In this document: positions 6,271-22,211 of the stretch, one piece after another | Position numbering within the stretch: the stretch's first letter is position 1 | How the letters are laid out: each line of letters opens with the position of its first letter | Assembly: GCF_029167625.1 (NCBI RefSeq) | Contig: NZ_CP119146.1 | Span: 124,001 to 188,000 of the forward strand | Source: Streptomyces sp. AM 4-1-1 | GTDB taxonomy: Bacteria; Actinomycetota; Actinomycetes; Streptomycetales; Streptomycetaceae | Direction: 5' to 3' | DNA: 64,000 bases | Notes under the pieces: generated by a model | What the model was told of the DNA's origin: nothing | The model's database searches: none | What the model saw: the letters and a program-made list of their open reading frames with translations, nothing else | Position numbers and translations under genes: made by a program

Positions 6271-8418
6271 TCAGGACAGGCGAGCGCGGACGCGTGCGGC
6301 GTCCGTGGCGCTCAGCGGCTCGTACGACGCCAGCGCGCGGGAGAAGAGCTCGCGGGCTTCGTCCTCGGCGCCTGCTGTCGCAACGCTCTCGCCGAGGAGT
6401 TCCAGGCTCCGGGCCATCCACTGACGCGATCCCGTCTGCTCGAACTCGAGCTGCGCCGTCGAGCCCGCCTGCCGGGCTTCGTCGTGGCGCCCGGCGGCCG
6501 AGTACGCCCGGCCGAGCCAGGCCAGGGCCCGGGCCGCGTCGTGCGGGTCGTCGACCTCGATCAGGGCTGCCCGGGCAGTGGCGAGGGTATCGACGGCTGC
6601 CGCGGCGTCGCCGCGGCCCAGATGGACCTGCCCGAGCAGAACATCGGACAGGGCGATGCCGCGGGGGTCACCCGTGCGCTCGCGCAGAGTTCGTGCCTGT
6701 TCCAGGTGTCCCACGGCTTCCTCGGGGCGTCCGGCCTCGTACGCGGTGACGCCGAGTTCGTGGAGCGCCTGCGCCTCACCTCGTGCGTCGCCGCGGGCGC
6801 GGGCGCTGGCCAGAACGTCGGTGAAACACTGGCCCGCTTCGTCGAAGGCGCGCGTGCCGCGCAGGCCAATGCCTAGGGTGTTGGCCATCTCCTGGACGGC
6901 GAGGGCGTGGTTGTAGAGGCGTGCGGCCTCCAGGCCGAGGCGGTGGACGTCGACCCACGCGTCGTACATCCGGGCGGCGCGCCACCAAGGCCACATGGCG
7001 TGGACGAGCTGCCATACCAGCCCGTACGAGCCGCCCGCGTGCGCGGCGCGGATCGTGGCCAGGAGGTTGGCGGACTGCGCGTCGAGCCAGGACAGGGCCG
7101 CCGCCCGGTCGGGAAGGACGAGCGGGTGTTCGGCGGGGTAGACGTAGGTCCGGTCGAGCTGGCGGTGGCTGGGGGTCACCAGCCGCTCGGCCGCAGTGGT
7201 CGCGGCCAGGTACCAGTCGGCCGCCCGCCGCCGGGCTTCGCTCTCCGCTCCGTCCGTCTCCTCCCGCACCGCGTGGTCACGTGCATGGACAAGAGCGGAG
7301 CGAGAGTAGCGGTAGACGGCTCCGCGTACGGGGTGCGTGCCGTCCCGGAGGAGAAGGCCGCCGGTGGCGACCTCTTCGAGGAGGTCGGCTGCTTCGGCCG
7401 GGCCGAGCAGCGCGACGGCGGCCGTGAGGGAACTGTCGACGCTCTGCACAGGTAACTGGGCGAGCTTCCGGTACAGGCGGGCGGCGGGGCGGGAGAGGTC
7501 CGCGTACGCGGTATCGAGGGCGGAGGTCACGATCGCTCCGGGGAGGTCGGCGGCGGGGCTGGTGCTCGCGGTCCAGCGGCGGCGTTCGCTCAGGGCGCGG
7601 GTGGCAGCGCTGAGCGGCCGGTCCGGGTGCCGGGCGAGTTGGGTGATGCTGAGGGCGAGCGCGAGGGGCAGGCCGGCGGTGAGCGCGATGAGTTCGGTGA
7701 CGGCTTCCGGTTCCCGCTGGACGCGTTCGGGGCCGAGGCATCGCGTCAGGTAAGAGCTGGCGGCCGAGCGGTCGAGGGGGTTCAGGGCGAGGGCGGCCGC
7801 GCCATGGCGGGCGAGTTCCGGCAGCGGGATACGGCTGGTCGCGACGACGAGGTGCCCACTGCCGCCCGGCAGTAGACGGTGGATCTCGTCGGCGTGGGAG
7901 ACCCCGTCGAGCAGCAGGCACATCGGGTCACGGGCAGCAGTTGCGGACCGCCACCAGGTCGCGAGTTCCTCGGCACCGGCAGGCAGCGGGCCCGGCAGGA
8001 TGGAGCGCAGCAGTCGGCTGAGGACCTCCCCGGGGTGGGCGGGACCGTCCGGGTCCTGTCCGCGCAGATCGACGTGGAGCTGTCCGCCCGGGTAGTGGGC
8101 GGACAGCCCGTGGAGGAGGCGTTCGGCCAGCGCGGTCTTGCCGATGCCGGCGGGCCCGGTCAGCACCGCGATGGGTACGGCGTACTTGGGCTGGGTCTCG
8201 ATCCACCGGGTGAGCTGGGCCTGCTCCCGTTCCCGGTCGGTCCACGCGGGCGCCACCGGCCGCAACTGCCGTGGCACCGGCGGCTCGTGACGGGGCTGGT
8301 GGAAATGGACGGCGCCGACCGTGCCTGCCTGCACGCTGGTGTGCAGGACGGCGTCCCCGCCGACGGTGTTGGTCACCACCGCGGGCCGGAGCGGAGTCCC
8401 GGGGGCCTGCTCGGTCAT
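6271..8418 (-). CDS. NB-ARC/TPR signalling ATPase with N-terminal amyloid-like motif
   Basis: This 715-aa STAND-type protein has a P-loop GPAGIGKTA at residues 88-96, a Walker B CLLLDG at about 167-172, the GLPLAL motif at 249-254, and a C-terminal half of TPR-like repeats from about residue 400. It resembles AfsR without its DNA-binding and BTAD parts. Residues 16-40 are rich in V, G, H and T with alternating small and beta-prone residues (VLHTSVQAGTVGAVHFH), like the amyloid signalling motifs known at the N-termini of actinobacterial NLR-like proteins. That part is inference. No effector domain is fused. It ends the leftward operon, 34 bp after the preceding gene. Confidence 0.88.
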   Translation of the reverse strand: MTEQAPGTPLRPAVVTNTVGGDAVLHTSVQAGTVGAVHFHQPRHEPPVPRQLRPVAPAWTDREREQAQLTRWIETQPKYAVPIAVLTGPAGIGKTALAERLLHGLSAHYPGGQLHVDLRGQDPDGPAHPGEVLSRLLRSILPGPLPAGAEELATWWRSATAARDPMCLLLDGVSHADEIHRLLPGGSGHLVVATSRIPLPELARHGAAALALNPLDRSAASSYLTRCLGPERVQREPEAVTELIALTAGLPLALALSITQLARHPDRPLSAATRALSERRRWTASTSPAADLPGAIVTSALDTAYADLSRPAARLYRKLAQLPVQSVDSSLTAAVALLGPAEAADLLEEVATGGLLLRDGTHPVRGAVYRYSRSALVHARDHAVREETDGAESEARRRAADWYLAATTAAERLVTPSHRQLDRTYVYPAEHPLVLPDRAAALSWLDAQSANLLATIRAAHAGGSYGLVWQLVHAMWPWWRAARMYDAWVDVHRLGLEAARLYNHALAVQEMANTLGIGLRGTRAFDEAGQCFTDVLASARARGDARGEAQALHELGVTAYEAGRPEEAVGHLEQARTLRERTGDPRGIALSDVLLGQVHLGRGDAAAAVDTLATARAALIEVDDPHDAARALAWLGRAYSAAGRHDEARQAGSTAQLEFEQTGSRQWMARSLELLGESVATAGAEDEARELFSRALASYEPLSATDAARVRARLS

Positions 8419-8452
8419 CGCCAGATACCTCGTCGTCGCGTCCGGTAAGGGG

Positions 8453-8986
8453 TCAGATCTGGGTTTCGCCGCGGACGAGCCACAGCCCGGCCCGCCGCGC
8501 GGCGTACCAGGTCAGCTGGTCCTGGTAGAGGCGGTCGGCGAGGGTGATCGCGGTCCGGCTGACCGCGATCACACCGCGCACCGGGCTGGCGGGGTCGGCC
8601 AGCATCCGCAGCGCGCGGGCATAGCCGCGCCGCAGGAGCGGGTCGTCGCCGCCGGTTCGCACATCGGTGGCGTCCAGGGCGTCCACGATCGGCGGGCCAT
8701 GGACGGTCAGACGGTGTGCCGCGGCGTATCCCCGTACGGCGGCTAGGTCGTCGTGGACTTCCCGGCCGGGCCCGGTCAGGGCGTACAGCACCACGTCCGT
8801 CGGTCCCGGCACGGAGAGGACCACCCGGTTCATCGTCAGGCGCTCCGCCTCCAGCACGCCGAGGGCCGGGACGGGCGGAGGCTCCGCCGGTGCGGGCCGC
8901 TGAGCGCCGGCACGCGGGTACAGACGGCGGCCCGGCAGTACCGGGGCTATCTCGGGCACCTGGGCGGCGAGAGTGAGGGCATTCAC
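8453..8986 (-). CDS. Unknown protein, resolvase-like fold
   Basis: This 177-aa protein is not firmly recognised. The pattern VVLYALTG, then AAVRGYAAAHRL, then RALRMLADP, then RGVIAVSRTAI follows the layout of the serine-recombinase N-terminal domain. The catalytic Ser of the usual YARVS motif is absent and no DNA-binding tail is seen, so recombination activity is unlikely. A similarly built protein lies at 32284-32826. Its ATG overlaps the GNAT stop by 4 bp, which makes co-translation likely. Confidence 0.68.
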   Translation of the reverse strand: MNALTLAAQVPEIAPVLPGRRLYPRAGAQRPAPAEPPPVPALGVLEAERLTMNRVVLSVPGPTDVVLYALTGPGREVHDDLAAVRGYAAAHRLTVHGPPIVDALDATDVRTGGDDPLLRRGYARALRMLADPASPVRGVIAVSRTAITLADRLYQDQLTWYAARRAGLWLVRGETQI

Positions 8987-9636
8987 CGCAGGGCTCCGAT
9001 CCCGTGCGCGGGGCGAGGGGCGTCGAGAGGGACGGCACAGGTGATCAGGCCCGAAAGGCCGTCCCGTTCCTGCGCATTGAGCCGTAGCCGTTCCACCAGT
9101 TCACCGTCGCGGTTACTGCCCGTGCCGGTGACCAGCCAGCCCAGGGACTGGAGGTAGTCGAGCAGCGGGTCCGTGGCAGCGCCGCTCGCCGGGGACGGCG
9201 CCTCGGCGTATACCCGCGTCGCCCCGGCCCGGGCGGCGAAGTCGCTCGCCCAGAGCGTGATCAGCCAGCCGTACCGCTCGCTGAGACCCACAGCCGTGTA
9301 GAAGAGCGAGATCCCCAGGCAGGGCCCATCCTCGTCCTCGATTCGCGGGTGCTGTTCGTGCCGGCGGTGCAGCATCAGGCAGCCCAGGAGTCTTTCCTCG
9401 CCGGCGGCGTCGTCCTCGTACAGGCCGACGCCCTCCGCCCAGGCGTCCCGGTAGGCGGCGATGTGGCGGTGGGGCAGCGTGATGCCGCACGCGGCGAACT
9501 GCCGGGCCCGGTCATCGACCAGGGCGGCGGCCGTCGCACGGTCGGCGTCGGTGATCAGCGGTCGCATCTCATACTGCGGTCCAGCCGACCGGTGCTCGTC
9601 CTGGTCTCCAGCCGGGGGTGCGGTGGTGGTGTTCAC
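8983..9636 (-). CDS. GNAT-like N-acetyltransferase
   Basis: This 217-aa protein starts with a polar 20-residue tail, then a GNAT-like body (MRPLITDADRATAAALVDD, then LGCLMLHRRHEQ). The acetyl-CoA loop is not a clean Q/RxxGxG/A, so the assignment is by overall pattern. It overlaps the neighbouring genes by 4 bp on both sides (ATGA junctions). The substrate is unknown; inside an operon with a LanB dehydratase it could acetylate a product or act on protein, but this is conjecture. Confidence 0.68.
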   Translation of the reverse strand: MNTTTAPPAGDQDEHRSAGPQYEMRPLITDADRATAAALVDDRARQFAACGITLPHRHIAAYRDAWAEGVGLYEDDAAGEERLLGCLMLHRRHEQHPRIEDEDGPCLGISLFYTAVGLSERYGWLITLWASDFAARAGATRVYAEAPSPASGAATDPLLDYLQSLGWLVTGTGSNRDGELVERLRLNAQERDGLSGLITCAVPLDAPRPAHGIGALR

Positions 9637-10136
9637 CGTGCGGCTCCTTCACCGACGGCGGTGGACGAGGACGGGACAACTTCTGCGTCCGCACCGAGTA
9701 GGCCCAGGGCGTGGCCCCAGCCGACGAGCTGCGTGGCGTTGGCAACGCCCGCCGCGCGTACGAGGTCCTCCGTGGAGGCTTTGACGTCGGCCGGGGTGAT
9801 CTTCGCCGCCTTGGCGATGTCGGCGAGCGCGGAGTGCTCGGCGAGTGCCGTGAGCAGCCGCCGCTGGTCCTCGTCGGCCGCGAAGGACGGCCGTACCACG
9901 GAGAGCGAGGGTACGGGGACCTGCCGGTGCAGGAGCAGGGCGTGGGCGAGGACCGGGCGGGAGGAGCGGGGCGGGCAGCGGAGGCTGCGGCGCATGCCGC
10001 GGATGTGGGAGGTCACCGTGGCGCCAGACAGGTGTCCTTCGGCGGCGATCTCGCTGTTGGTCCGGCCCCGGACCAGGCGCTCGGCGATCCGTTTCTGGGC
10101 GGGGGTGATCGGAGTGATGGGGGCTGCGGTGGTCAT
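9633..10136 (-). CDS. Tandem LuxR-type HTH protein without receiver
   Basis: This 167-aa protein begins with a GerE/LuxR HTH (ITPAQKRIAERLVRGRTNSE, continuing IAAEGHLSGATVTSHIRGM). Its second half has another LuxR-like C-terminal helix pattern (LVRAAGVANATQLVGWGHAL). No receiver or ligand domain is present. I chose the ATG giving MTTAAPIT because upstream in-frame sequence is low-complexity Pro/Arg. It is probably a DNA-binding regulator encoded within the operon. It starts 26 bp after the P450 stop and overlaps the GNAT start by 4 bp. Confidence 0.72.
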   Translation of the reverse strand: MTTAAPITPITPAQKRIAERLVRGRTNSEIAAEGHLSGATVTSHIRGMRRSLRCPPRSSRPVLAHALLLHRQVPVPSLSVVRPSFAADEDQRRLLTALAEHSALADIAKAAKITPADVKASTEDLVRAAGVANATQLVGWGHALGLLGADAEVVPSSSTAVGEGAAR

Positions 10137-10162
10137 CTGGGGGTCCTGGTCGGTTGGGGTAG

Positions 10163-11443
10163 TCAGGCGGACGGGGTGCCGAGGCGGACGGGGAGCTCCT
10201 GGTGCCCGTTGGAGATGAAGCTGGGCAGGGGCCGGAGCTGGTCGGGCGTGACGGCCAGGTGGAGGTGGGGGAAGCGGGTGAAGAGCGCTTCGAGGGCGAT
10301 CCGGGCCTCGATGCGGGCGAGTTCGGCGCCCAGGCACAGGTGGGTGGCGTGGCCGAAGGCGAGGTGGTCGCGGGCGCTGTGGCGGGTGATGTCGAACTGG
10401 TCGGCGGTAGGGCCGTGGAGGTCGGTGTCGCGGCCGGCGGCGGCGTAGTTGATAGCGAGGGCGTCGCCCTGGGCGAAGGTGATGCCGGTGGCGTCGTCCG
10501 TCAGCTCGCGTACGGCGAAGCGCAGGATGATCGTCGCGATCGGGGCCTGGTGGCGCAGGGTCTCTTCGACGACGGGTTCCCAGCCGGTTTGCCCGGTGGT
10601 GGCCCGGGTGAGCTGGTCGGGGTGGGTCAGGAGGTTGGTGATGGCGTGGTCGAGGAGGTCGACGGTGGTCTCGTGTCCGGCGCCGATGAGCAGGACCAGG
10701 CTGTCGGCGAGTTCCTGTTCGCTGAGCTGGCCACTGTCGTGGGCGGCGATGAGGCCGGAGGTGACGTCGTCTCCGGGCTGCTCGCGCTTGCGGGCCACCA
10801 GGGCGGCGATGAGCTCGTAGACCCGGACCGGGGCGGCTTCGGCCTCCTCGGGAGCGAGGTCGGTGGCGAACAGGGCGCCGGCCGCGTCGCGGAAGTCGTC
10901 GTGGAGGTCCTCGGGGACGCCGAGGATCGCGTTGACCACGAGGAGCGGCAGGCGCCAGGCGAAGCGGTCGCGCAGGTCGACGGTCTCTTCGGGGCCGGCG
11001 TGCTGGAGGTCGTCGAGGAGGGTGTGGGTGATGGCCTCGATCTGCGGGGCCAGGGCGCGGACCCGGCGGGTGCTGAACGCGGCCGCCAGGGGGCGGCGCA
11101 GGCGGTGGTGCTCGTCGCCGTACGCACTCAGCGCGTTGCGGACGTCGACCCAGATCCGCAGTGGCCAGTCGGCGGGGACCGTGCGGTTGATGTAGGCGGG
11201 CCAGTGCTGGTGGGCGTCCTTGGAGATGTCGGGGTGTTTGAGCAGGCGGCGTATGAGGCCGGGGTCGGTGACGGACCAGGTGGGGATGGAGTCGGGCAGG
11301 CCCGGCAGGACGACCCGGGTGGCCGGGCCGCGGGTGCGCAGAGCGGCGGCCTCGGCGTGGATGTCGGAGCCGGTGGCGTCGAGGCGGAAGGGGCAGCCGG
11401 CGGCGGGGGACTGGGTGGTGGAGGTGCTGGCAGTCATGGTCAT
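10163..11443 (-). CDS. Cytochrome P450 (CYP154/156-like)
   Basis: This 426-aa soluble haem monooxygenase has an I-helix AGHETT at residues 255-260, an ExxR (ETLR) at 294-297 and a haem loop FGHATHLCLG with Cys370, so the catalytic set is complete. The loop has Ala where most P450s have the second Gly. It starts with an ATGA overlap on the preceding P450 gene. Conservons in Streptomyces often carry a CYP157/CYP154-type pair at this position. The substrate is unknown; with LanB upstream it may oxidise a peptide or another small molecule (inference). Redox partners are not encoded here. Confidence 0.95.
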   Translation of the reverse strand: MTMTASTSTTQSPAAGCPFRLDATGSDIHAEAAALRTRGPATRVVLPGLPDSIPTWSVTDPGLIRRLLKHPDISKDAHQHWPAYINRTVPADWPLRIWVDVRNALSAYGDEHHRLRRPLAAAFSTRRVRALAPQIEAITHTLLDDLQHAGPEETVDLRDRFAWRLPLLVVNAILGVPEDLHDDFRDAAGALFATDLAPEEAEAAPVRVYELIAALVARKREQPGDDVTSGLIAAHDSGQLSEQELADSLVLLIGAGHETTVDLLDHAITNLLTHPDQLTRATTGQTGWEPVVEETLRHQAPIATIILRFAVRELTDDATGITFAQGDALAINYAAAGRDTDLHGPTADQFDITRHSARDHLAFGHATHLCLGAELARIEARIALEALFTRFPHLHLAVTPDQLRPLPSFISNGHQELPVRLGTPSA

Positions 11444-12711
11444 CGCCTTCTGGTCGTGGGCAGGTGGGTGTCGGGCTGGAAGGTCACGGGCAGCGCGGTG
11501 AGCCCGGCGTGGAAGGTCGCGGGCCGGGCGGTGAGTTCGCCGGGGGTCACGGCGAGTGCGAGGCCCGCGAGGCGGTCGACGGCGCATTCGAGTGCGGTCT
11601 CGGCGATGATCCGGGCCAGGTCGGGGGCCGGGCACATGTGGGCGCCGGCCGAGTACGCGAGGTGACCGCGGTTGCCCGCGCGGGCGCCCGCCGCGAAGGG
11701 CAGGGCGGGATCGGCGTTGGCCGCGGCGAAGGACACCAGGATCGGGAAGCCTTCCTGGAGGTAGACGCCTTCGTAGCTCTGCTCGCCGATGGCGTACAGG
11801 GGGCTGTAGTTGGAGACGGGCGGGGTGTGCCACAGGACTTCGTCGAGGGCGTCGGCGAGGGGCTTGACGCCGGTGTGGACGGTGCCAGCGAACCGCTCGT
11901 CGGTGATGATCCTCCGCAGTGAGTTCATGATCAGGTTGCTGGAGGGGGTGGATCCGGCGCCGATGACCAGGAGGATCGTCTGGACCATCTCGGCGTCGTT
12001 CAAGCCGGCCGCGATCAGGTAGGTGGTGACGTCCCGTGCGGGCTGGACCCGCTTGAGGCGGGTCAGTTCCAGGCAGGCCGACTCGAGTTCGGCGTTGGCC
12101 TGCACGCCGTCGGAGTCGGCATCGAACAGGCGGGTCACCGCGACGACGATGCGCCGGCCGAGGGCGGGCGGGCAGCCGAACATTTCGATCATGGTGAGCA
12201 TCGGCAACGGGTCGGCGTACTGCGACACCAGGTCGGCCTGCCCGTCGGCGGCGAAGGCGCTGAGCAGCTGGTCGGCGATCTGGCGGACGGTGGCGGCCAG
12301 GGCGTGGGTGTCGACGCCGTCGAGGCTGGCGGTGATCGCGCGGCGTAGCCGGGTGTGCTCCGGCCCGTCCTTCCACAGGGCGTTGTCGCGGGGCTGCATC
12401 ATCATCAGCGCCGGGCTGTCGGGCGGGACCTGCCCGCGGCGCAGGGCTTCCCAGCGCCTGGGGTCCTTGCCGAAGCGCGAGGGGGTGTTCTGCAGGAGGT
12501 AGAGCGCCGCCCGGTAGGTGACGGTGAGGTATCCGTAGACGCCGGGGGAGATCTCCACCGGCATGATCGGGGCCACGTCGCGCAGCCGCTGGTAGGTGGC
12601 ATCCGGGTTAGCGTTGAAGGCGGGTCCGTAGATGGGCAGCGGCACCTCGGGCGGCGGTGCGGACGTGTGGGCCGGGCACTGGCCGGTGCCGGATGTCGGG
12701 TGTGTGGTCAT
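11440..12711 (-). CDS. CYP157-like cytochrome P450 lacking ExxR
   Basis: This 423-aa P450 has the haem-ligand Cys at 360 (YSAGAHMCPAPDLARI) but EVLW at 291-294 in place of ExxR. Its I-helix has GAGSTPSSN without the usual acid-alcohol pair. The CYP157 family is known for lacking ExxR and for sitting in conservons, which fits here. I chose the ATG giving MTTHPTSG because it overlaps the cvnD stop by 4 bp. It is paired with a canonical P450 downstream. Whether it is catalytic or a partner or sensor is unknown. Confidence 0.95.
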   Translation of the reverse strand: MTTHPTSGTGQCPAHTSAPPPEVPLPIYGPAFNANPDATYQRLRDVAPIMPVEISPGVYGYLTVTYRAALYLLQNTPSRFGKDPRRWEALRRGQVPPDSPALMMMQPRDNALWKDGPEHTRLRRAITASLDGVDTHALAATVRQIADQLLSAFAADGQADLVSQYADPLPMLTMIEMFGCPPALGRRIVVAVTRLFDADSDGVQANAELESACLELTRLKRVQPARDVTTYLIAAGLNDAEMVQTILLVIGAGSTPSSNLIMNSLRRIITDERFAGTVHTGVKPLADALDEVLWHTPPVSNYSPLYAIGEQSYEGVYLQEGFPILVSFAAANADPALPFAAGARAGNRGHLAYSAGAHMCPAPDLARIIAETALECAVDRLAGLALAVTPGELTARPATFHAGLTALPVTFQPDTHLPTTRRR

Positions 12712-13334
12712 CGGGCAGGCTCCGGCGTACGGGTCAGCAGGTGGCTGACGAGGGCTATCAGGGCGTCGCGGGCGCTGGGGCGCTCGCGGGCGTCGCACCG
12801 CACCAGCGGGGTGTCGGGAGGCAGGTCCATGACGTAGCGCAGCCGCTCGTCGGTGACGGCGGGGGCTTCGGCGAAGGTGTTGACGGCGATGGCGTACGGC
12901 AGCCGGAGGTCCTCGACGAGCTGGAGGATGGGGTAGGTGTCGGCCAGCCGGCGGGTGTCGACCAGGACGAGCGCGCCGAGCGCGCCGATGGCCAGGTCCT
13001 GGAGGATCGGGAAGAACCGCTCCTGTCCGGGGGCCCCGAACAGGTAGAGGACCAGGTCCTCGGAGAGCGAGTGCCGCCCGAAGTCCATGGCCACGGTGGT
13101 GGTCTTCTTGTCCGGCAGAGTGACGTCGTCGACGTCCGTGCCCGCGCGTGTCATCACCTCCTCGGTGCTGACGGGGGCGATCTGCGACAGGGCGTGGACG
13201 TAGGTGGTCTTCCCGGCGCCTAGGTGCCCGCAGACGAGGACCTTCACGGTGCGCTCGTCGCCGCGCAGCCTGGGCGGTGCGGTCTCAGATTCGGCGAAGG
13301 CCGGCAAGGACTTCCTCCAGCAGTGCTCGGTCAA
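12708..13334 (-). CDS. cvnD: Conservon GTP-binding protein CvnD
   Basis: This small Ras-like/MglA-like GTPase of about 208 aa has its P-loop GHLGAGKTT at residues 36-44, then GAPGQERF (the G3 region) and an IAVNTF segment near G4. Conservon GTPases work with the sensor-like CvnA, roadblock CvnB and DUF742 CvnC as a membrane-linked switch resembling eukaryotic G-protein signalling. The chosen ATG overlaps cvnC by about 50 bp; a later non-ATG start is possible. The stop overlaps the CYP157-like start by 4 bp, coupling the switch to the P450s. Confidence 0.95.
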   Translation of the reverse strand: MTEHCWRKSLPAFAESETAPPRLRGDERTVKVLVCGHLGAGKTTYVHALSQIAPVSTEEVMTRAGTDVDDVTLPDKKTTTVAMDFGRHSLSEDLVLYLFGAPGQERFFPILQDLAIGALGALVLVDTRRLADTYPILQLVEDLRLPYAIAVNTFAEAPAVTDERLRYVMDLPPDTPLVRCDARERPSARDALIALVSHLLTRTPEPAR

Positions 13335-13653
13335 CGGTGGTGGTGTCGGTCATGCGCCGCTGGGTGGTGATGTGTCCCCACTCCATTAGGTCGGCCAGCA
13401 GGACGCGGGTCACGCTGACCGGCAGGCGCAGGAGCGCGCCGAGTTCGGCGACGGCCTGCGCCCCGCCGGCCAGCACCCGCAGGATCGAGAGGTGCTCGGG
13501 GTTGAGGGGGGCACGGCTGAGGTGGCCGGCGGAGGCCGACAGGCTGATGAGCGTGATGTGGTCGAAGTGATTGCGGCTGGGCGCGGCCCGGCCGCCCGTC
13601 ACCACGTAGGCCCGCACCAGCCGGTCGTCGCCTGCCTGCCGTGCCCCGCTCAT
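13285..13653 (-). CDS. cvnC: Conservon DUF742 protein CvnC
   Basis: This 122-aa DUF742 protein has VRAYVVTGGRAAPS at its N-terminus, the LNPEHLSIL segment and a winged-helix-like half (VAELGALLRLPVSVTRVLLA, then DLMEWGHI). The start is the ATG giving MSGARQ, which overlaps the cvnB stop by 4 bp. DUF742 proteins are the third element of Streptomyces conservons and probably connect the roadblock protein to the GTPase. Confidence 0.93.
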   Translation of the reverse strand: MSGARQAGDDRLVRAYVVTGGRAAPSRNHFDHITLISLSASAGHLSRAPLNPEHLSILRVLAGGAQAVAELGALLRLPVSVTRVLLADLMEWGHITTQRRMTDTTTVDRALLEEVLAGLRRI

Positions 13654-14057: not shown

Positions 14058-15346
14058 GAGATCTGCTCCTGATCGGTGGAGTTGGTGGAGTTGGGGCGGG
14101 CGGAGGAGGTGCCGCGCACGAACGCGGCGAGGCCCCGGCCGGCGCCGGGCCGCGGGACGCTGGTGGCAGGCGCGGCGGCCGGGAGCCCGGACCCGCGCCT
14201 GCCCCGGCGCATCGGCAGGCCGTCCTCCACGGCCACCGGATACGGGTGGCCGCCCGGTGCCGACGCGTCCGGCACATATCCGGCCGCGGGCTCGGGAGCG
14301 GGCGCGTGGGTCGGTGCCGTGACCAGGAGGGCTCGCGGCAGGTGGAGGACCGCGCGGACTCCGCCGTGCACGGACTGCTGCTCCACCGAGACCGTGAAGC
14401 CGTAGCGCGCGGCAAGCAGGCCGATGGCCTGGAAGCCGAAGCGCGGCGGAGTCCGCAGTTCGGTGATCCGCACCGGGTTCTGTCCGGACAGCAGACGGGC
14501 CGCGCGCTCACGCTCCTCCGGGGCCATACCGATCCCGGCGTCCTCGATGACGATGCTGATCCCGTTGTGTCCTTCGAGGTACCAGACGTAGACCTTGGTG
14601 CCGGGGTGGCTGTGCTGGGCGGCATTGTTGAGCAGCTCTGCGGCGGCAAGGACCACCGGCTCGACAACGCGACCGGCCACGTACGCGGTGGGCTCCCCGG
14701 TGATCTCCACCCGGGGGTAGTCGCGGATCCGGGAGACTCCGCCGCGGATGGTTTCCAGCAGGGGGGTGTCGGCCCGCTGACGGCCGGGCCACATGCCTGT
14801 CAGGATGCCCACGATCTGGGCACGGCGGGCGAGTTGGCTGCTGGCGTGGTCGATGGGGATCGTGATCGCGAGGGTCTTCTCGTCGCTCTGGAGATCCTGC
14901 AGAGCGGTCACGGCGACCTGCTGCTCGTTGATGAGGGACTGCATCGAGCGGACCACAGCCTCGACCGCCGCCCTGGCCGCGCCCTCGGCGCGTTCGGCGG
15001 CCTCGTTCGCCAGCACGGCGACCTGGTCCAGCACAGCGTGGTAGGCCGCGCCCGTCTCGGTGTCGGCGAGCTGCGGGTGAAGCAGACCGGCGTCACGATG
15101 GCGGCCGCCGTCCCCACGGCTCAGCGCGACGATGAGCGCCGGCAGCCGCTGCGCGGCAAGATTCCGTGCCTCCTCGTCCCGGGCCGACACACGCTGCTCA
15201 CCGTCGCGGACCCGGCCCTCCAGCTGGCGGATGACGCCGAGCCGCTCGGCGGCTCGGCGCCGGTAGTGCACCGCCACCGCGCCCGCGCCTGCGGCGGCAC
15301 CGGTCGGCACCGCCAGCAGCACGATGTTCTGTATCAGCGTGCTCAT
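14054..15346 (-). CDS. cvnA: Conservon sensor-kinase-like CvnA
   Basis: This 430-aa protein has one N-terminal membrane segment (IVLLAVPTGAAAGAGAVAVH, about residues 6-25), a coiled coil-rich middle, and a HATPase domain with N-box LLNNAAQHS and G-box DAGIGM, followed by a disordered Pro-rich tail. It is the usual first gene of a conservon; no receiver partner is nearby. The start is the ATG that shares a base with the upstream stop (TGATG). It probably senses a membrane or intracellular signal and controls CvnB/C/D. The ligand is unknown. Confidence 0.93.
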   Translation of the reverse strand: MSTLIQNIVLLAVPTGAAAGAGAVAVHYRRRAAERLGVIRQLEGRVRDGEQRVSARDEEARNLAAQRLPALIVALSRGDGGRHRDAGLLHPQLADTETGAAYHAVLDQVAVLANEAAERAEGAARAAVEAVVRSMQSLINEQQVAVTALQDLQSDEKTLAITIPIDHASSQLARRAQIVGILTGMWPGRQRADTPLLETIRGGVSRIRDYPRVEITGEPTAYVAGRVVEPVVLAAAELLNNAAQHSHPGTKVYVWYLEGHNGISIVIEDAGIGMAPEERERAARLLSGQNPVRITELRTPPRFGFQAIGLLAARYGFTVSVEQQSVHGGVRAVLHLPRALLVTAPTHAPAPEPAAGYVPDASAPGGHPYPVAVEDGLPMRRGRRGSGLPAAAPATSVPRPGAGRGLAAFVRGTSSARPNSTNSTDQEQIS

Positions 15347-15882
15347 CAAATCCCCACAGAAGTAAGGTCGGTTCGGACAGAGCCGCAGTTCGCGAGGCCC
15401 GCCGTGTGCTGCGGGAACAGCGCGAAGTGCAGCAAGATCGGCGCGGAGAAGACCCGGCATTCACGGTTGCCGAGACGGGCCCAGCTCAAGTCGTTTGCCG
15501 GTCCGGCCGCCCGCGGCGGGACCGTGAGGACGCCCTCGTCGCGGTGGTCGACCAGCCCGCTCCACTGCATGCCGTCCCCGGATCCGGGCGGGAGGATGAG
15601 GACCCACTTGTCGGTGAGCGGCCGGGCCACGGCGGCACCGACCGGGTGAGCACGGCGCTCCCCGAACCGGGCGATGAGATCCAGAGCGGTACGTCGGGGC
15701 ATTGTCAGGGTGTCGAAGCGATCCCCGACCGCCACCTCGAACGGCGCCCGCGCCGTCGTCGAGTCCGGGAAGAGGTCGTCCACGCTGACCTCCGCCCCGG
15801 CCCGGACCACATGCGCGGCCGGCGGGACGAGTCCGGGGTTGGCGGCGTCGGCTGCGGGGGCGCGTACGGCGAGGGCCCTCAT
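15346..15882 (-). CDS. Unknown small protein between GH15 and conservon
   Basis: This 178-aa protein begins MRALAVRAPAADAAN, with a later segment WVLILPPGSGDGMQWSGLV and an HRDEGVLTVPPRA stretch. That segment is reminiscent of prim-pol-derived small proteins common in Streptomyces, but I cannot confirm it. It has no signal peptide. It overlaps the GH15 stop by 4 bp and its own stop overlaps cvnA by one base, so it belongs to the operon and may be stoichiometric with CvnA. Confidence 0.72.
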   Translation of the reverse strand: MRALAVRAPAADAANPGLVPPAAHVVRAGAEVSVDDLFPDSTTARAPFEVAVGDRFDTLTMPRRTALDLIARFGERRAHPVGAAVARPLTDKWVLILPPGSGDGMQWSGLVDHRDEGVLTVPPRAAGPANDLSWARLGNRECRVFSAPILLHFALFPQHTAGLANCGSVRTDLTSVGI

Positions 15883-17891
15883 CGCGCGGTCCCGGCGACC
15901 AGGGCGTGGCCGCTCCGCGCGGCATGCACCGCCAGCGCCGCCAGGATGAGCGCCAAGTGCGAGAAGCCTTGCGGGACGTTGCCGAGTTGCCGCTGCTGGT
16001 GCGGGTCCCACTCCTCGGACATCAACCCGAGGTCGTTGCGGGTGCTGAGCAGACCGTCGAGGAGGATCTCCGCCTCGTCCACCCGACCGATCCGGGCCAG
16101 CGCCGTGATGAGCCAGCCCGAGCAGATCAAGAACGCGCCCTCGTCACCGGGCAGCCCGTCGCGGCCAGGGACCGCACCGCGGGTGTGGTAGCGCAGCATG
16201 AAGCCGCCCTGGATGGACAGATCCCGCTGGACGGCTTCGACGGTGCCGATGATCCGCTTGTCGGTGGACGGCAGGAAGCCGACCGTCACCATCTGCAGCA
16301 GCGCCGCGTCCAACTCCTTGGATCCGTAGGACTGGGTGAACGTATTGCGCTGCTCGTCGTAGCCGAGCAGGCACACCTGGGCGTGGATCTCCTCACGCAA
16401 GCCCCGCCACCGCTCCACCGGACCGTGGGCGTGACCGGCGTCGATGAGCGTGACCGCACGGTCGTAGGCCACCCAGGCCATCACCTTGGAGTGCACGAAG
16501 TGCCGCCGGTCGCCACGCACTTCCCAGAGCCCCTCGTCCGGCTCTGACCACAAGTTCTCCAGGCAGGCGGCCAAGTCGGTGATCATCGTCCCGACGGCCG
16601 GCGCCAGCGACGGGTCGCGCACCTGCGCGTCGTACAGTGCGCTGATGACCTCGCCGTATACATCGACCTGGAGCTGCTTCGCCGCGGCGTTGCCCGTGCG
16701 GACCGGGGCGGAGCCCTTGTGGCCGGGGAGCCAGTCGAGGACGGTCTCCGGTAGGTCGCGCTCGCCGCCCACTCCGTACATCACCTGGAGCAGCTCGGGG
16801 CAGCCGCCGATCGCGGTGCGCAACCAGTCGACCCAGGCCCGCGCCTCGTCGATGAATCCGCAGGCCAGGAACGTTTCGACGATGAACGCGCTGTCCCGCA
16901 ACCAGCAGTAGCGGTAGTCCCAGTTACGGATGCCGCCGATCTCCTCGGGCAATGAGGTCGTCGCCGCCGCCACGATGGCGCCGGTCGGTGCGTAGGTGAG
17001 GGCCTTGAGCGTGATGAGGGACCGCTCGAACGCGTCCCGGTGCGGTCCGGTGTAGGTGGACTGGCTGATCCAGTCTTGCCAGAAGTCGACGGTCTCCTTG
17101 AGGAGTCCGGTGGCGTCCGGCAGCGGGGGCGGGGCGTCGGTGTCTGGCGACCATGTCAGGTTGAGCGACAGCGTCTCGCCCTCGGACACCTCGAACTGCG
17201 TCAGCAGGTCGCCGTCGGCGGTCTGGGTAGGGGCGGGAGTGTCGAGCCACAGGCGGCCCGGCTCAAGGTCGACGCTCGCCCGGTGCCCGTCGGCGTTCAC
17301 GGTCGGGACGTGGCGGCCGTAGTCGGGGCGGGCCCGCAGCAGGGACCGCATTGCGACCCGTCCGCTGATGCCCCGCACGTTCCGGACCACGTGCGGCGCC
17401 TGCCCGGCGGTCGGCATGAAATCGGTCAGCTGCACCGTGCCGTCCCTGGTGATCCAGGTGGACTCCACGGCCAGGGTGCCCGGCAGGTACCGGCGCCGGT
17501 CCGCCACGGGCGCCGGCCTGTCCTCTGTGGCGGGTCCCACCCGCCACAGACCGTGTTCCTCGCTGCCCAGCAGCCGGGCGAAGACCGCGGGGGCGTCGAA
17601 CCTACCGGGTGACAGCATAGTGATGGCGCCGTCCCGGTCGACGTGCGCTGCGGTACGCATGTTCCCGATGAACGCCTGGTCCTCGATCCGCCCCACCGAC
17701 CGCGTCGCGGCCGCACGCGCGGAGGGGAATTGCTGAGGGCGCGGGAAGGCCGGGAGGATGCTGCCCGCGGGCAGCGGGCCCGGCTGCTGACCGCGCGCGT
17801 GGGCGGTCAAGGCGGCGGGGAAGTGCTGGGACATGTATCGGGTCCTCGGTGGGTTGCTCGGGCAGGGCAGGGAGCGGGCGAGGGCGTTCAT
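15879..17891 (-). CDS. Glycoside hydrolase family 15 protein
   Basis: This 670-aa protein resembles GH15 glucoamylase/trehalase-type enzymes of actinobacteria: an N-terminal beta domain, then the (alpha/alpha)6 barrel with the hallmark GGIRNWDYRYCWLRD at about residues 319-333. It has no secretion signal, so it is probably cytoplasmic and likely acts on trehalose or a maltose-like glycan. It is unusual to find it between a LanB and a conservon. The ATG used overlaps the lanB stop by 4 bp; an in-frame ATG at residue 20 (MSQHFP) is an alternative. The lack of other sugar genes argues against an ordinary catabolic operon. Confidence 0.92.
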   Translation of the reverse strand: MNALARSLPCPSNPPRTRYMSQHFPAALTAHARGQQPGPLPAGSILPAFPRPQQFPSARAAATRSVGRIEDQAFIGNMRTAAHVDRDGAITMLSPGRFDAPAVFARLLGSEEHGLWRVGPATEDRPAPVADRRRYLPGTLAVESTWITRDGTVQLTDFMPTAGQAPHVVRNVRGISGRVAMRSLLRARPDYGRHVPTVNADGHRASVDLEPGRLWLDTPAPTQTADGDLLTQFEVSEGETLSLNLTWSPDTDAPPPLPDATGLLKETVDFWQDWISQSTYTGPHRDAFERSLITLKALTYAPTGAIVAAATTSLPEEIGGIRNWDYRYCWLRDSAFIVETFLACGFIDEARAWVDWLRTAIGGCPELLQVMYGVGGERDLPETVLDWLPGHKGSAPVRTGNAAAKQLQVDVYGEVISALYDAQVRDPSLAPAVGTMITDLAACLENLWSEPDEGLWEVRGDRRHFVHSKVMAWVAYDRAVTLIDAGHAHGPVERWRGLREEIHAQVCLLGYDEQRNTFTQSYGSKELDAALLQMVTVGFLPSTDKRIIGTVEAVQRDLSIQGGFMLRYHTRGAVPGRDGLPGDEGAFLICSGWLITALARIGRVDEAEILLDGLLSTRNDLGLMSEEWDPHQQRQLGNVPQGFSHLALILAALAVHAARSGHALVAGTAR

Positions 17892-20800
17892 CGCGGGGGC
17901 GGCTTCGCCGCGTTCCTTGAGCTCTGGTCCGGGGGAGAGGGACGGCGGTCGGAAGGCGGGCGGGACGTCGTCTCCCGGGCCGCCATGGCGTGGCCGCGGG
18001 CGATCCTCCGCGCGGTCTGCTCGGCGGCCGGGTCGGGGCCGAGCATCCGCAGGCAGTGCAGATGCAGCAGTTCATTCAGCACGTGGTCGGTGTTCACGAC
18101 GCCGGTGCGGCGAACGAGGGGCCCGTAAGCGCCGAGCGCACGGTGGCGCACCATCCACGGTGGGGCGTCCTGCGTGTCCCCGGTGGGTGTCAGGGCGTCA
18201 ATCAGACGGCCGGCTTCCTGTCCGGCGCCGGTCGGCAGTCGCTGGCCGGACAGTTTCGGCTGCGCTCTCAGCCAGGCCAGCCCGGTCTCCCGGTCGCCGA
18301 AGAAGCCGCGGACGATGCCGAGGAGGTGGGTGGCCGCGAGCAGGTGCCGGTCGGTTCCGGGGCGTGAGGGAAGGTGGCGGGCGACGGCGGCGGAGTCGGC
18401 TGCAGCGACCTCTTCGGCGGCCTCCAGCAGCGCCCCGCCGCCCCACAGGCCGGTGTGCGGCCGGTAAGGCGCCAAGGTGATCTCCCGCAGGGCCCCGGCT
18501 TCCACGAGCTGCCCCGCCCATGTGCCGAGGTGGCGCACCGCGTCCCCTGCCCCGGCGGCATCGGGTAGGCGCAGCGTCAGTTCCAGGTGCGGGTCCCGTC
18601 CGGCGCGGGGCCGGCTCCACCACAGCGGATGCCCCAGGTCGTCCAGCACCGCGGGCAGGTGATCGGCGATCAGGTCGTCGCGGCCCTGGGGCGGCCCGTA
18701 CAGGCGGGCATGGAGGTAGCGCGAGGCGCCCGGCAGGTGCGCGCGAGGCTCGCGCGGTTCGTGCACGGCATGCAGATCGGGTGCCGGGCGGGGCGGGGCG
18801 GCGGATCGCAGGAGGGTGACAACCTCGGTCGCCCGGCCGCCGGACCAGCCGAACGCATCAGCCGCTGGCCCTTCGACGAGGTGGACGGGGCCAGACTCGA
18901 TGTTGGCCAGTTGGGACCGCAGGAGCGCGAGGTCGCTGGGCGTGCCGAGGTCCAGGGCGATGCGGACGTCGAAGCGCTCCAAGAGCACCCGGTCGGGTAC
19001 GGGGATGCCGCGCTGGGCCCGCCAGGCGGAAAAGCCGTCCTCCCACTCAGCGCTGACGGCGCGGGGCCCGGGCAGTCCGGCGTGGTTGAGGCTCCACATC
19101 GCCGGACTCAGGACGGACCGCCCGGCCCTCAGGCGGGGCAGTTCGGGCAGACGGCCGGCCGCTCCCCAGCTCATGGGCCGCAGAGTGCCCAGCGGGCCGA
19201 CCATCCGCATGGCCTGGCCACACGACAGCTCCTCCAGAAAACGGACGACCGCCGGGGTCTGGCATTCGATCTGCAGCGGGTGGATCTTCCCGGCCTCGAT
19301 GACCTGCCGCCGGGAGCGCGAGACCAGATGCAGGACTTGTCCGTCGCACAGCACGGCGAGGTCGGACAGCTCAATCCGGTCTGCGTCGGCGGCGGAGCGA
19401 TCCCGGTGCTCGGCCAGGGAGATGACGACGGGCGAGATGAGGGGAGTGCGGGTGATGTGCAGGCCTCCCGGGATCAGCCCAGGGAAGGAGAGCTGCGCGC
19501 GCTGCGCGCCCGCAGTGCTCACCGGCCGGTTTGCGAGCGTGTCGAGCAGGCGGCTGCCCGGTTGCTGGGCGAGCAACGCGGCGAACCTTCCGCCCGTGAA
19601 GTAGCCCCACCCTCGCGTGCCGCGTACGGCGAGCTCGAACTGCCCGGCCGCCAGGTCGCCGGGCGAGGCACTGTGCAGCTCGAACAGCATCTCAAGGTGT
19701 GCGGGAGGGGTCATCCGGTCCGGGTCTCCGACAGCGACTCGGACGGCCAGCTCATCGTCGAGTTCGAGATCGGAGCCAGTCAGGGCCGCTTGCTGGGCGG
19801 CCACGAGGAGTTCCGTGTCTCGAGTGGTCAGGGTCTGCTGCCGGGCTCCGACGGTCGGTGTGCCGTGGAATCCGTCCGGCAGGCCCAGTCCTGTGGAGGC
19901 GGTCAGCTCCAGCAACGGCACCGCGACGCTGGGCCCGTACTCGGCAAGGAAGCGATCTCGGTAGTCACTCCAGTCGGTGGTCCCGTACGGCTCCGGGCTG
20001 ATCCGCGCGAGGAGTTCCGCGGTCCGTTCTGCCTCCCACGCCACCTGCCGGGGCAGAACCACGTCGGCGTCCAGCAGGGTGTCGATGGCCACGGGCTGCT
20101 GCGTCGTCGAGTGCGGGGCCATCACCTCGCGGAGGTCCCTGCGCAGCGGCGCGCCGTCGGCCGCCGCGGCGTTGTGCGCGAGCATCAGCTGGTGAGTACG
20201 GTGCAGTTCGGCGATCAGACTGGCTGCTTCGGGGACGTGGTGCGCATTCACCCGCTCCAGTTGGTCCAGGACGTAACCCAGGGCGTCGGTTTCGGTGGCC
20301 GGCGGCTGCAGGCAGGTGATCAGGACCCGGCGTGCGATGAGCACGTCAAGTAACTCCCGTACTTCCCCGCCAGCGTGCCGGGGCGCCTCCGCCTGCGCCT
20401 TGTCCAGGAGGTCGCCGTACGGGACAGGGGAAGAGGCGAGATCGACGAGCACCCGCACTTCGGGCTCCAGCCGCACGGAGGTTTCCATCACCTCGGTCCC
20501 GGTCACATCCGGTTGCCGCGTCCGCCAAGGAAGAACGACCCGGTCGCCGCGCTGGACCAGGGTGTTCGACGCGACCAACCGCAGCCGCTCCCGCAGGGGC
20601 GAGATCGACTCCAGCGTGTTGATGACCTCGGCCAGCCACCGTCCGTCCGCGCGGGCAACCGCCCGGTGTTTCTCACCCCACCGGACTGCTGGCTCGGAGC
20701 CGAAGGCGATCTCGGTAATTCCGGCAAACAGCCCGAACGGCACCGCGCGGGACAGCAGGCGCGTGCGGTAGGCGAGCAGCGACAGCGCCACGCTGAAGAT

Positions 20801-21058
20801 CGTGTCCGCGGTCGAGTCACCGCCTTCCACGAGCAGGTCCAGGCTGTGGGCTAGGTCGGCGCTGGCATGCCGCACCGGCTCTTGGACATCCGCGTGGCGC
20901 CATGTCGCTTCGACCCATGCGCGGGTGGCGATGACTCCGGCTGCCGAGCGGTCGGTGAGGTCCGGGACGGCGGGCAGTGGATGGGTGGCGGGATGGCAGA
21001 CGGCCCGCAGCATGGCGGACTGGGCGCTGACGAAGCGCAAACGGCGGCCGGCGCTCAT
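17888..21058 (-). CDS. Class I lantibiotic dehydratase (LanB-like), full length
   Basis: This 1056-aa protein has the length of LanB/NisB-type dehydratases. The N-terminal glutamylation part (SLLAYRTRLLSRAVPFGLFA near residues 90-110) is followed by a C-terminal SpaB_C-like elimination domain (ASRYLHARLYGPPQGRDDLI at about 795-815, then HLELTLRLPDAAG). LanB enzymes use glutamyl-tRNA to dehydrate Ser and Thr in a precursor peptide. No LanC cyclase, protease or obvious transporter lies nearby. Small ORFs immediately upstream are possible substrates. It starts at the ATG giving MSAGRRLRF, about 50 bp after a 68-aa ORF. Confidence 0.93.
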   Translation of the reverse strand: MSAGRRLRFVSAQSAMLRAVCHPATHPLPAVPDLTDRSAAGVIATRAWVEATWRHADVQEPVRHASADLAHSLDLLVEGGDSTADTIFSVALSLLAYRTRLLSRAVPFGLFAGITEIAFGSEPAVRWGEKHRAVARADGRWLAEVINTLESISPLRERLRLVASNTLVQRGDRVVLPWRTRQPDVTGTEVMETSVRLEPEVRVLVDLASSPVPYGDLLDKAQAEAPRHAGGEVRELLDVLIARRVLITCLQPPATETDALGYVLDQLERVNAHHVPEAASLIAELHRTHQLMLAHNAAAADGAPLRRDLREVMAPHSTTQQPVAIDTLLDADVVLPRQVAWEAERTAELLARISPEPYGTTDWSDYRDRFLAEYGPSVAVPLLELTASTGLGLPDGFHGTPTVGARQQTLTTRDTELLVAAQQAALTGSDLELDDELAVRVAVGDPDRMTPPAHLEMLFELHSASPGDLAAGQFELAVRGTRGWGYFTGGRFAALLAQQPGSRLLDTLANRPVSTAGAQRAQLSFPGLIPGGLHITRTPLISPVVISLAEHRDRSAADADRIELSDLAVLCDGQVLHLVSRSRRQVIEAGKIHPLQIECQTPAVVRFLEELSCGQAMRMVGPLGTLRPMSWGAAGRLPELPRLRAGRSVLSPAMWSLNHAGLPGPRAVSAEWEDGFSAWRAQRGIPVPDRVLLERFDVRIALDLGTPSDLALLRSQLANIESGPVHLVEGPAADAFGWSGGRATEVVTLLRSAAPPRPAPDLHAVHEPREPRAHLPGASRYLHARLYGPPQGRDDLIADHLPAVLDDLGHPLWWSRPRAGRDPHLELTLRLPDAAGAGDAVRHLGTWAGQLVEAGALREITLAPYRPHTGLWGGGALLEAAEEVAAADSAAVARHLPSRPGTDRHLLAATHLLGIVRGFFGDRETGLAWLRAQPKLSGQRLPTGAGQEAGRLIDALTPTGDTQDAPPWMVRHRALGAYGPLVRRTGVVNTDHVLNELLHLHCLRMLGPDPAAEQTARRIARGHAMAARETTSRPPSDRRPSPPDQSSRNAAKPPPR

Positions 21059-21110
21059 GCCTCTCCCTTGCTGGTAGACGTGGACGGATGGGTGGGGGGG
21101 CGGCGGTCTG

Positions 21111-21317
21111 TCACTCGCAGTCCCGGCCGGTGACGAAGAACTTCGTCAAGGCGTCGGCCGTGCCGGGCACGACGACATCCCTGAGATCGGCTCGTTCAGC
21201 GAGCGGCACGCCGCGTCGGACGAGCTGCACCGTGCGGGACTTGCCTATCGACGCGCAGGCCGGTTCGGGGGCGCCGTGGGGGGCGTTCTGGTCAGGGCTG
21301 CTACTCATGCTCCTCAT
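21111..21317 (-). CDS. Small peptide upstream of LanB, candidate precursor
   Basis: This 65-68 aa peptide has two possible ATG starts (21317 and 21308). It has a polar N-terminus with one Cys, a central stretch RTVQLVRRGVPLAERADLRD and a C-terminus ending FFVTGRDCE. It lacks the FxLD motif and has few Ser/Thr/Cys near the C-terminus, so it is not a typical lanthipeptide. Its position directly before lanB makes it the first candidate substrate or accessory subunit. It overlaps the end of the 44-aa ORF. Confidence 0.55.
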   Translation of the reverse strand: MRSMSSSPDQNAPHGAPEPACASIGKSRTVQLVRRGVPLAERADLRDVVVPGTADALTKFFVTGRDCE

Positions 21318-21435
21318 CCACCTTCGATTCCGGTTCCCCAGAGCGATCGGGCCCCTGCCGCCGGGGCCCGAGGACCATCAGGACGGCCATCGCGCCGACG
21401 ATTACGGTGACCACGACCCAGCCGGCAGTTGTCAT
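21301..21435 (-). CDS. 44-aa single-span membrane protein
   Basis: This ORF is 44 codons. It starts MTTAGWVVVTVIVGAMAVLM, one strong hydrophobic segment, followed by a charged tail of about 22 residues rich in Arg, Glu and Asp. Topology is probably N-out/C-in. It ends inside the next ORF, and its start is 10 bp after the preceding 48-aa ORF. The tight packing supports translation; the function is unknown. Confidence 0.55.
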   Translation of the reverse strand: MTTAGWVVVTVIVGAMAVLMVLGPRRQGPDRSGEPESKVDEEHE

Positions 21436-21445
21436 GGCGCAGCCC

Positions 21446-21592
21446 TCACTGCCCGGGAACCGCGGTGATGACGAACAGCACGGCCGCCGCGAAGCCGGGG
21501 TTGACCTGCCAGTGCTCGTAGTCGCAGGCGGCCGTCGCGGGGAGAAGTTTCACGCCGAGAGGCTGGGGGCCCGACGTGGGGATAGTGGTCAC
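21446..21592 (-). CDS. 48-aa small protein with hydrophobic C-terminus
   Basis: It starts at a GTG that overlaps the stop of the preceding gene (GTGA). The sequence begins MTTIPTSGPQPLGVKLLPAT, has one Cys, then a Trp-containing polar stretch and a hydrophobic C-terminal segment FAAAVLFVITAVP. It could be a membrane peptide or a precursor with a leader; neither is proven. The stop is 10 bp before the 44-aa membrane ORF. Confidence 0.52.
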   Translation of the reverse strand: MTTIPTSGPQPLGVKLLPATAACDYEHWQVNPGFAAAVLFVITAVPGQ

Positions 21593-22152
21593 GCCGTCAC
21601 CGCCTCGCGCGGCAGCGGCCGCCGCGGCTCGACGACGTCACCGGTCGGCAGGAGACACCCGGTGTCCTCGAAGATCAGCACGCCGTTGCACAGCTCGCTG
21701 CACCCGATCTCGGGTTGGTGAAGGCGGATCTTGGCCGCCTCGCAGTCCTGGGCCGTCGCAGGCGGGCATTCGACCAAGTGGCCGCACACCCGATCAGCTA
21801 CGGCGAGTTCGACGACGACCGTGGCCACCGCAGTCGCGAGCTTCCGTAGATGTTTCCGCATGTCCAGGTATTGCGTCGGCACATCCGCCTCGCTGCTCTT
21901 CCGGGCCGCGGCGAGCGCCGCGTCGAGCTCCGGGCGGGACCGACCCAGTGATGCGTGTCCGAGTTCCATGAGATGGCCACGCAGCCTGAGGATGACGTCG
22001 TCGATGTCATGGTCGCTGTCGAGAAGCGGGGCGTTCTCGTCAAGAACCAGCGCCAGGGTCTCTCGGGTAGCCGCGATGATGGAGCGGGACGGAGCCTTGC
22101 GGCCGGAGGGCTGGCTACGGACGGCGCTACGGGGGAGGCGGAGGAGGCTCAC
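21589..22152 (-). CDS. Cys-containing protein, DUF6415-like
   Basis: This 187-aa protein has a helical core (VILRLRGHLMELGHASLG, later MRKHLRKLATAVATVVVELA), then a Cys-containing end (EIGCSELCNGVLIFEDTGC) and LPTGDVVEPRRPLP. The RLRGHL pattern is reminiscent of DUF6415 proteins of Streptomyces natural-product loci; this is from memory and weak. The C-terminal Cys residues could bind metal or FeS. It starts at GTG overlapping the stop of a 20-codon ORF and ends overlapping the 48-aa ORF. Confidence 0.72.
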   Translation of the reverse strand: MSLLRLPRSAVRSQPSGRKAPSRSIIAATRETLALVLDENAPLLDSDHDIDDVILRLRGHLMELGHASLGRSRPELDAALAAARKSSEADVPTQYLDMRKHLRKLATAVATVVVELAVADRVCGHLVECPPATAQDCEAAKIRLHQPEIGCSELCNGVLIFEDTGCLLPTGDVVEPRRPLPREAVTA

Positions 22153-22211
22153 GACGCTGTCCCGTCAGCGAGGACGGCCTTCGCGGTACAGGCTGTCGGC
22201 GTGCGGTCCAT
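22149..22211 (-). CDS. 20-codon ORF at operon head, possible leader peptide
   Basis: The peptide is MDRTPTACTAKAVLADGTAS. A strong GAGGAG ribosome-binding site lies 8-9 bases before the ATG, and the stop overlaps the next gene (GTGA). It may serve only to couple translation of the downstream GTG-started gene, act as an attenuation leader, or be a tiny product. It is the first translatable ORF of the leftward operon. Confidence 0.45.
   Translation of the reverse strand: MDRTPTACTAKAVLADGTAS

Follow-up and report, generated by a model that had tools for sequence, protein, structure and literature searches.

A LanB with a remodeled elimination site and its conserved small peptide: a candidate glutamylation module beside a conservon in a putative Streptomyces plasmid operon

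We analyzed a 64,000-nucleotide stretch of Streptomyces sp. AM 4-1-1 (contig NZ_CP119146.1, positions 124,001 to 188,000; termed the window and numbered from its first letter), in which a run of genes joins a LanB protein to a GH15 hydrolase, a conservon, two cytochromes P450, and an NLR-like protein. These genes, already named in the initial annotation of this DNA, were all found on the minus strand, by Pfam matches or, for two of them, by homology. We found that the LanB belongs to a clade with an intact transferase site and a remodeled elimination site and that a conserved 65-amino-acid (aa) open reading frame (ORF), which the initial annotation had overlooked, lies just upstream of it. From these sequence features, we tentatively propose that the LanB glutamylates a Thr of the small peptide without normal elimination and that the product would not be a lanthipeptide.

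The LanB gene (17888 to 21058, minus strand) encodes both a glutamylation and an elimination domain (PF04738 and PF14028), as in class I lanthipeptide clusters. Scanning of genome contigs with a single LanB query returned no relatives and scanning with an alignment query returned five, while a further sample of 101 genomes, many of them shared with the earlier one, gave no additional close LanB. Relatives of the window LanB are located on plasmids (Streptomyces NBC_01216 and loci L004, L005, and L007) and also on a 7.9-Mb contig (genome G023). In a tree computed by a quick method from the transferase part only (residues 1 to 700, lyase columns excluded), 22 LanBs, labeled beforehand by peptide, lyase motifs, and similarity, formed one clade (SH-aLRT, 100) nested among the LanBs of FxLD class I clusters, which comprise an FxLD precursor, LanB, LanC, and FxlM.

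The residues of this clade were compared with those of 33 other LanBs (from a set of 34, one being truncated in the lyase), with NisB numbering taken from HMMER alignments. The equivalents of the transferase residues R83, R87, D299, and R464 were kept in 22/22 clade members, and those of the elimination residues R784, R786, and E823 were found in none of the 22, versus 30/33, 29/33, and 29/33 of the others, respectively. Eight alignment sites were kept in at least 85% of the other LanBs and in at most 2/22 of the clade, and seven of them fall in two lyase motifs (the chance of 7/8 lost sites in the lyase domain is 0.0003 by domain size, in a test chosen after the data were seen). Where the loop used to be, the clade has a segment of its own, P-Y-R (P864 in 21/22 and R866 in 20/22). 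Mean pairwise identity in the lyase domain is lower in the clade (0.437) than in 12 hand-picked FxLD-like sisters (0.533; L039, L041, L042, and L043 excluded), whereas the transferase part is equally similar in the two groups (0.513 and 0.507). The NisB mutants R786A, R826A, and H961A are reported to glutamylate without eliminating (PMC4979651), which matches the activity predicted here, although these are laboratory mutants and the clade is natural.

The 65-aa ORF (21111 to 21308, minus strand) stands directly upstream of LanB and has the C-terminal motif V-P-x-T-A-x-A-L-x-x-F-F. Homologues in the same position were found in 10 of the 11 clade loci, namely, the window, L003 (the NBC_01216 plasmid), L028 (strain WZ.A104), L027, L029, L030, L031, L004, L005, and L009. 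A profile built from nine peptides retrieved 42 proteins at an E value of 1e-5 or better, including that of the window, none of which is listed with a Pfam domain or under a name that indicates function. Beside the start Met, P48, T50, F57, and F58 are invariant, and L36, D41, V47, A51, and A53 are nearly so. Across 100 relatives, the window's own genome included, the profile gave strong matches only in G000, G023, and G025, whose LanB matches are also the closest (100, 45, and 58% identity; 41% in the next genome), and a fourth, weak match (E value, 0.005) came from outside the genus. We infer that the peptide is probably the substrate of the LanB, as judged from this co-occurrence and placement. 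In the C-terminal part, defined as starting 10 residues before the motif, 12/42 peptides contain only one Ser or Thr.

The arrangement recalls FxLD clusters, which likewise have a small peptide with an LD-like motif upstream of LanB: a Cys-rich FxLD-like ORF precedes LanB (by eye, within 500 bases) at 9 of the 12 loci examined as sisters, with none in L035 and L040 and with L032 being itself a clade member, and the precursors of L003 and L006 pass TIGR04363. In contrast, the clade has changed lyase residues, and the C-terminal part of the peptide is free of Cys in 39/42 cases. We rejected the assignment of the operon to the FxLD clusters, as the window peptide has no NCBIfam match, TIGR04363 included, and the window has no match to LanC or FxlM. 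A LanB without LanC had been noted in the initial annotation, and tblastn with two FxLD LanCs (E value limit, 1e-4) likewise found no LanC match in the window; nor were FxLD-type LanC and FxlM found beside the clade LanBs, except in a separate FxLD cluster in L003. Unlike a class I lanthipeptide cluster, the window thus combines no LanC match with a peptide that does not have the expected Ser/Thr- and Cys-containing core. In the FxLD loci L041 and L042, the LanB has lost its Arg pair and the aligned segment of FxlM carries RLRLR or RLRIR together with YEPE, for which reason the lyase work may there have moved to FxlM; these loci suggest that in FxLD systems this activity can pass from one protein to another. 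The FxlM of L006, the only one examined in this respect, has an N-terminal TIGR03891 lyase-like domain.

We propose that the block is a plasmid operon of two modules. In the first, composed of the small peptide and LanB, the enzyme would most likely take glutamate from Glu-tRNA and attach it to the Thr that is invariant in the P-x-T...FF motif; the reaction would end at the glutamyl stage, so that the product would be a glutamylated peptide and not a lanthipeptide. The second would comprise GH15, the complete conservon, two P450s (one of the CYP157 type and its partner), and one LuxR-type and one NB-ARC/TPR protein, with a major facilitator superfamily (MFS) transporter downstream; by analogy with the cvn8 conservon, this conservon might control expression in cis and elsewhere. 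With more doubt, we suggest a broader reading, in which a natural class of LanBs has shed elimination to become side-chain glutamyltransferases acting on a dedicated peptide family and making ester-linked glutamyl peptides; equally doubtful is its further part, that the class has spread on Streptomyces plasmids and chromosomes, often with a GTPase-switch operon. If this were true, class I dehydratases could evolve into peptide-tagging enzymes that halt at the glutamyl intermediate, and the products would represent a type of modification new among ribosomal peptides. To our knowledge, such halting is known only from NisB point mutants. The literature, as covered by titles and the starts of abstracts and with subscription journals mostly outside this coverage, described neither this gene set nor any natural clade of LanBs with altered lyase sites. 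We regard the LanB clade and its overlooked peptide family as the worthwhile discovery, and the pair is small and directly testable. Genome mining that starts from LanC and discards Cys-free cores, as described in one such study (PMC7268733), would miss this family.

The search for the same gene order in other Streptomyces strains, as advised in the initial annotation, revealed that the order is largely conserved in NBC_01216 and WZ.A104: the genes for the peptide, LanB, GH15, CvnA to CvnD, two P450s, the LuxR-type protein, and the "GNAT-like" protein follow one another in the window, L003, and L028, and the MFS gene precedes the TPR gene in L003 and follows it in the window. The initial annotation had suggested that the block acts as one functional unit, and here the comparison spoke otherwise: loci with the conservon and LanB parts apart, which the annotation had named as evidence that would refute its view, do occur. 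Locus L044 of S. xanthophaeus NBC_01137 matches positions 6360 to 18014 of the window at 88% DNA identity but has an in-frame deletion (L044 positions 13726 to 13992) that fuses a peptide gene truncated within the motif to the last part of LanB, and the 12 genes compared, from GH15 through the TPR protein, are without an internal stop. The dN/dS ratios between the window and L044 (0.17 to 0.75 across the 12 genes) cannot separate the two lineages and therefore do not demonstrate selection after the loss of LanB. The stretches read from plasmids of S. microflavus and NBC_00637 contain GH15 and a conservon accompanied by two P450s but lack LanB, and tblastn gave no LanB match in L045, L049, and L050. 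Altogether, seven GH15 plasmid loci had no LanB in the stretch read (L044 to L047 and L050 to L052), and four of them (L044, L045, L050, and L052) had a conservon, which in L052 is accompanied by a GAF protein and not by P450s. Conversely, L027 has the peptide and LanB without GH15 or a conservon, as far as the contig shows.

Since L044 has lost LanB and GH15/conservon loci exist without it, the gene set falls into modules and is not one obligate unit, as judged from these comparisons. The association between the modules is real though loose. GH15 lies within 20 kb of the clade LanB at 8/11 loci versus 0/11 for FxLD LanBs (Fisher P value of 0.001), with a ninth locus, L004, having it at 23 kb; for the conservon, the corresponding counts are 8/11 and 2/11 (P value of 0.03). 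In these tests the loci are not independent, and at least one flank falls short of 20 kb at L027, L028, L030, L040, and L006; later extension was limited to L005 and L007, and the counts exclude L043, whose LanB is truncated, as well as the short loci L010 to L026. A four-gene core is not claimed, as the 178-aa protein encoded after GH15 is only a weak match for an ORF that precedes the peptide in L029, L031, and L032 (best E value, 0.001; hhalign probability, 16%).

Several observations weigh against glutamylation without elimination. The equivalents of H961 and R826 are partially retained in the clade (13/22 versus 31/33 of the others and 8/22 versus 32/33, respectively) and that of H963 is present in 22/22 members, so some lyase function could remain; in addition, the effect of R784A in NisB is reported as mild (PMC4341554). 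The R786 equivalent is also absent from 4/33 other LanBs, and three of these (L039, L041, and L042) have LanC and Cys-rich precursors as neighbors, so this change alone is no proof of lost dehydration. On the side of the peptide, the clade locus L007, from Embleya, has no recognizable peptide, and Cys occurs somewhere in 18/42 family members and in the C-terminal part of three, including that of the window, where the single Cys of this part is the next-to-last residue. The invariant Thr could alternatively be a helix cap and not a modified residue, and the glutamate specificity of the clade LanB is assumed. Finally, further PF14028 domains were found in 6 of the 8 clade genomes searched, five in all in the genome of the window. 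The main rival explanation builds on the retained PF14028 domain, the universal H963, and the P-Y-R segment that took the place of the old loop: the LanB would still dehydrate its substrate, through a lyase site that has evolved anew, and would yield a linear dehydrobutyrine peptide, with no rings in the absence of LanC and, usually, of Cys. We consider this unlikely, as the R786 and E823 equivalents were lost in all 22 members and sequence identity is lower in the lyase domain and not in the transferase part.

The additional PF14028 domains would also suit elimination in trans by another protein, such as FxlM or a chromosomal FxLD LanB, as would the TIGR03891 domain of the L006 FxlM and the Arg-rich and YEPE segments of those of L041 and L042. 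G143 and G145, however, have no PF14028 domain other than that of the clade LanB, which makes elimination in trans unlikely in these two genomes, as far as their assemblies, of unstated completeness, go, and overall we find this explanation improbable. A LanB that adds an amino acid to the C terminus of the peptide, and not to Thr, would have precedent in the PEARLs, LanB-related enzymes that use aminoacyl-tRNA on a small scaffold peptide and need no elimination, like the role proposed here (PMC11962472). The C-terminal amide formation of PEARLs is ATP dependent. Yet PEARLs, as described there, typically have no elimination domain, while the window LanB retains PF14028; moreover, the C termini of the peptides vary and the Thr is invariant, and the clade is nested among FxLD LanBs, so we give a PEARL-like activity little credence. 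We are as skeptical of the model of the initial annotation, in which a single unit would both produce a peptide signal and, by way of the conservon, sense it. The gene order shared by the window, NBC_01216, and WZ.A104 and the frequency of conservons near clade LanBs, with the caveats on that test, speak in its favor, but the clean deletion of LanB in S. xanthophaeus with the rest of the operon open, the GH15/conservon stretches without LanB (L045/L049 and L050), and the peptide-LanB pair of L027, which stands alone within the limits of its contig, oppose it. It is least probable that LanB is a decaying passenger without function: its lyase motifs have changed and one relative has lost it, but the frame is open over its full length, the transferase site is kept in 22/22 members, and the gene is coconserved with that of the peptide. 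Glutamylation of the peptide Thr without normal elimination thus remains our preferred, tentative proposal.

In the second module, the conservon has the expected order: CvnA (14054 to 15346), a histidine kinase-like ATPase (PF02518, HATPase) with one hydrophobic stretch by hydropathy; CvnB (13650 to 14057), a Roadblock/LC7 protein (PF03259); CvnC (13285 to 13653), of the DUF742 type; and CvnD (12708 to 13334), a small GTPase (PF03029). CvnC had no match in the NCBIfam search and was identified by homology only, being 93% identical to an annotated DUF742 protein in L044. CvnA matched no sensor domain and no NIT or HAMP domain in Pfam, and a CvnE-linked CvnA without a sensor domain has been reported (PMC13343842). 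The first P450 (CvnE; 11440 to 12711) had no Pfam match at an E value of 0.001 and was likewise assigned by homology only (94% identity to an annotated cytochrome P450 in L044); its K-helix contains EVLW in place of EXXR. The second (10163 to 11443; PF00067) has ETLR and the heme Cys. EVLW has also been reported in CYP157A, and a link between CYP157s and conservons is described (PMC3599690). The initial annotation had counted the P450s as a separate ingredient; we rejected this, because the first bears the CYP157-type motif EVLW, and both are by sequence conservon partners. Conservons with a CYP157 (cvnE) and a second P450 indeed have the layout of the window, CvnA to CvnD followed by two P450s of which the first carries EVLW, but that of the window follows GH15, which in some strains is itself preceded by the peptide-LanB pair. 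A conservon beside a lanthipeptide-type cluster is already known from Streptomyces coelicolor, where cvn8 adjoins the lan genes (SCO6927 to SCO6938) and its deletion is reported to raise their expression (PMC8510531, PMC13343842), the linked product being named lanthiphage_Sco (PMC13343842). Unlike in the window, the cvn8 accessory is a GAF protein (CvnF8).

The window lies on a second replicon of 296,355 bases, which, beside a 7.17-Mb contig of the same genome, is probably a plasmid. The initial annotation had given about 18 leftward genes, nearly all overlapping by 1 to 4 bp; we count 17 from 22152 down to 6271, or 18 with the downstream MFS gene (4923 to 6230), and 12 of the 16 junctions among the 17 are overlaps, 10 of them by 1 to 4 bp and two by 8 and 50 bp, the remaining four being gaps of 10 to 52 bp (with the 177-aa ORF at 8453 to 8986 taken in preference to a shorter form of 126 aa). 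The overlaps and the conserved order suggest a single transcript; a scan of the run gave no promoter-like site and five terminator-like sites, versus 3.0 (standard deviation, 1.8) in shuffles, and was therefore uninformative on this point.

The other genes of the run are also on the minus strand. At its head stand a DUF6415/DUF5999 protein (21589 to 22152; PF19979 and PF19462), a 48-aa ORF (21446 to 21592) known by its reading frame only, and a 44-aa ORF (21301 to 21435) that overlaps the peptide gene, has a single predicted transmembrane segment by hydropathy and a 72% identical copy in L044, and resembles a 45-aa ORF that precedes LanB in L003 and L028. GH15 (15879 to 17891; PF00723) contains the segments WDYRYCW and SEE, which we take to be catalytic. 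It is followed by the 178-aa protein (15346 to 15882), weakly SCO3374-like (NCBIfam below cutoff; E value, 0.005), a homologue of which stands after GH15 in L003 and L044. Beyond the P450s lie the LuxR-type helix-turn-helix protein (9633 to 10136; PF00196), the protein labeled "GNAT-like" by eye (8983 to 9636), which has no Pfam or NCBIfam match and has a homologue in the equivalent place in L003 and L044, and the 177-aa protein, with homologues in L003, L044, and L032. The last gene (6271 to 8418) encodes an NB-ARC/STAND-like P-loop protein (GPAGIGKT) with TPRs (TPR_12 over the cutoff; NACHT and AAA matches below it in Pfam). The MFS gene downstream (minus strand; PF05977) is present in L003 and has no match in L044. 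A PADLOC scan of five operon proteins gave one weak TPR match only, and Rfam and ARAGORN found no match and no tRNA, respectively.

Asparaginase-type genes flank the operon on both sides (2272 to 3054 and 26887 to 27888) and also occur near GH15 in L045, L046, and L051. Type I-E Cas genes with a DEAD/DEAH helicase were seen near LanB on plasmid L004 (20472 to 26805) and near GH15 on plasmid L052 (16219 to 22702). Farther along the replicon of the window are a DDE_3-type transposase gene (35461 to 36555, minus strand) and T2SS/Tad-like genes (T2SSE, two T2SSF, and SAF) at 49921 to 54818.

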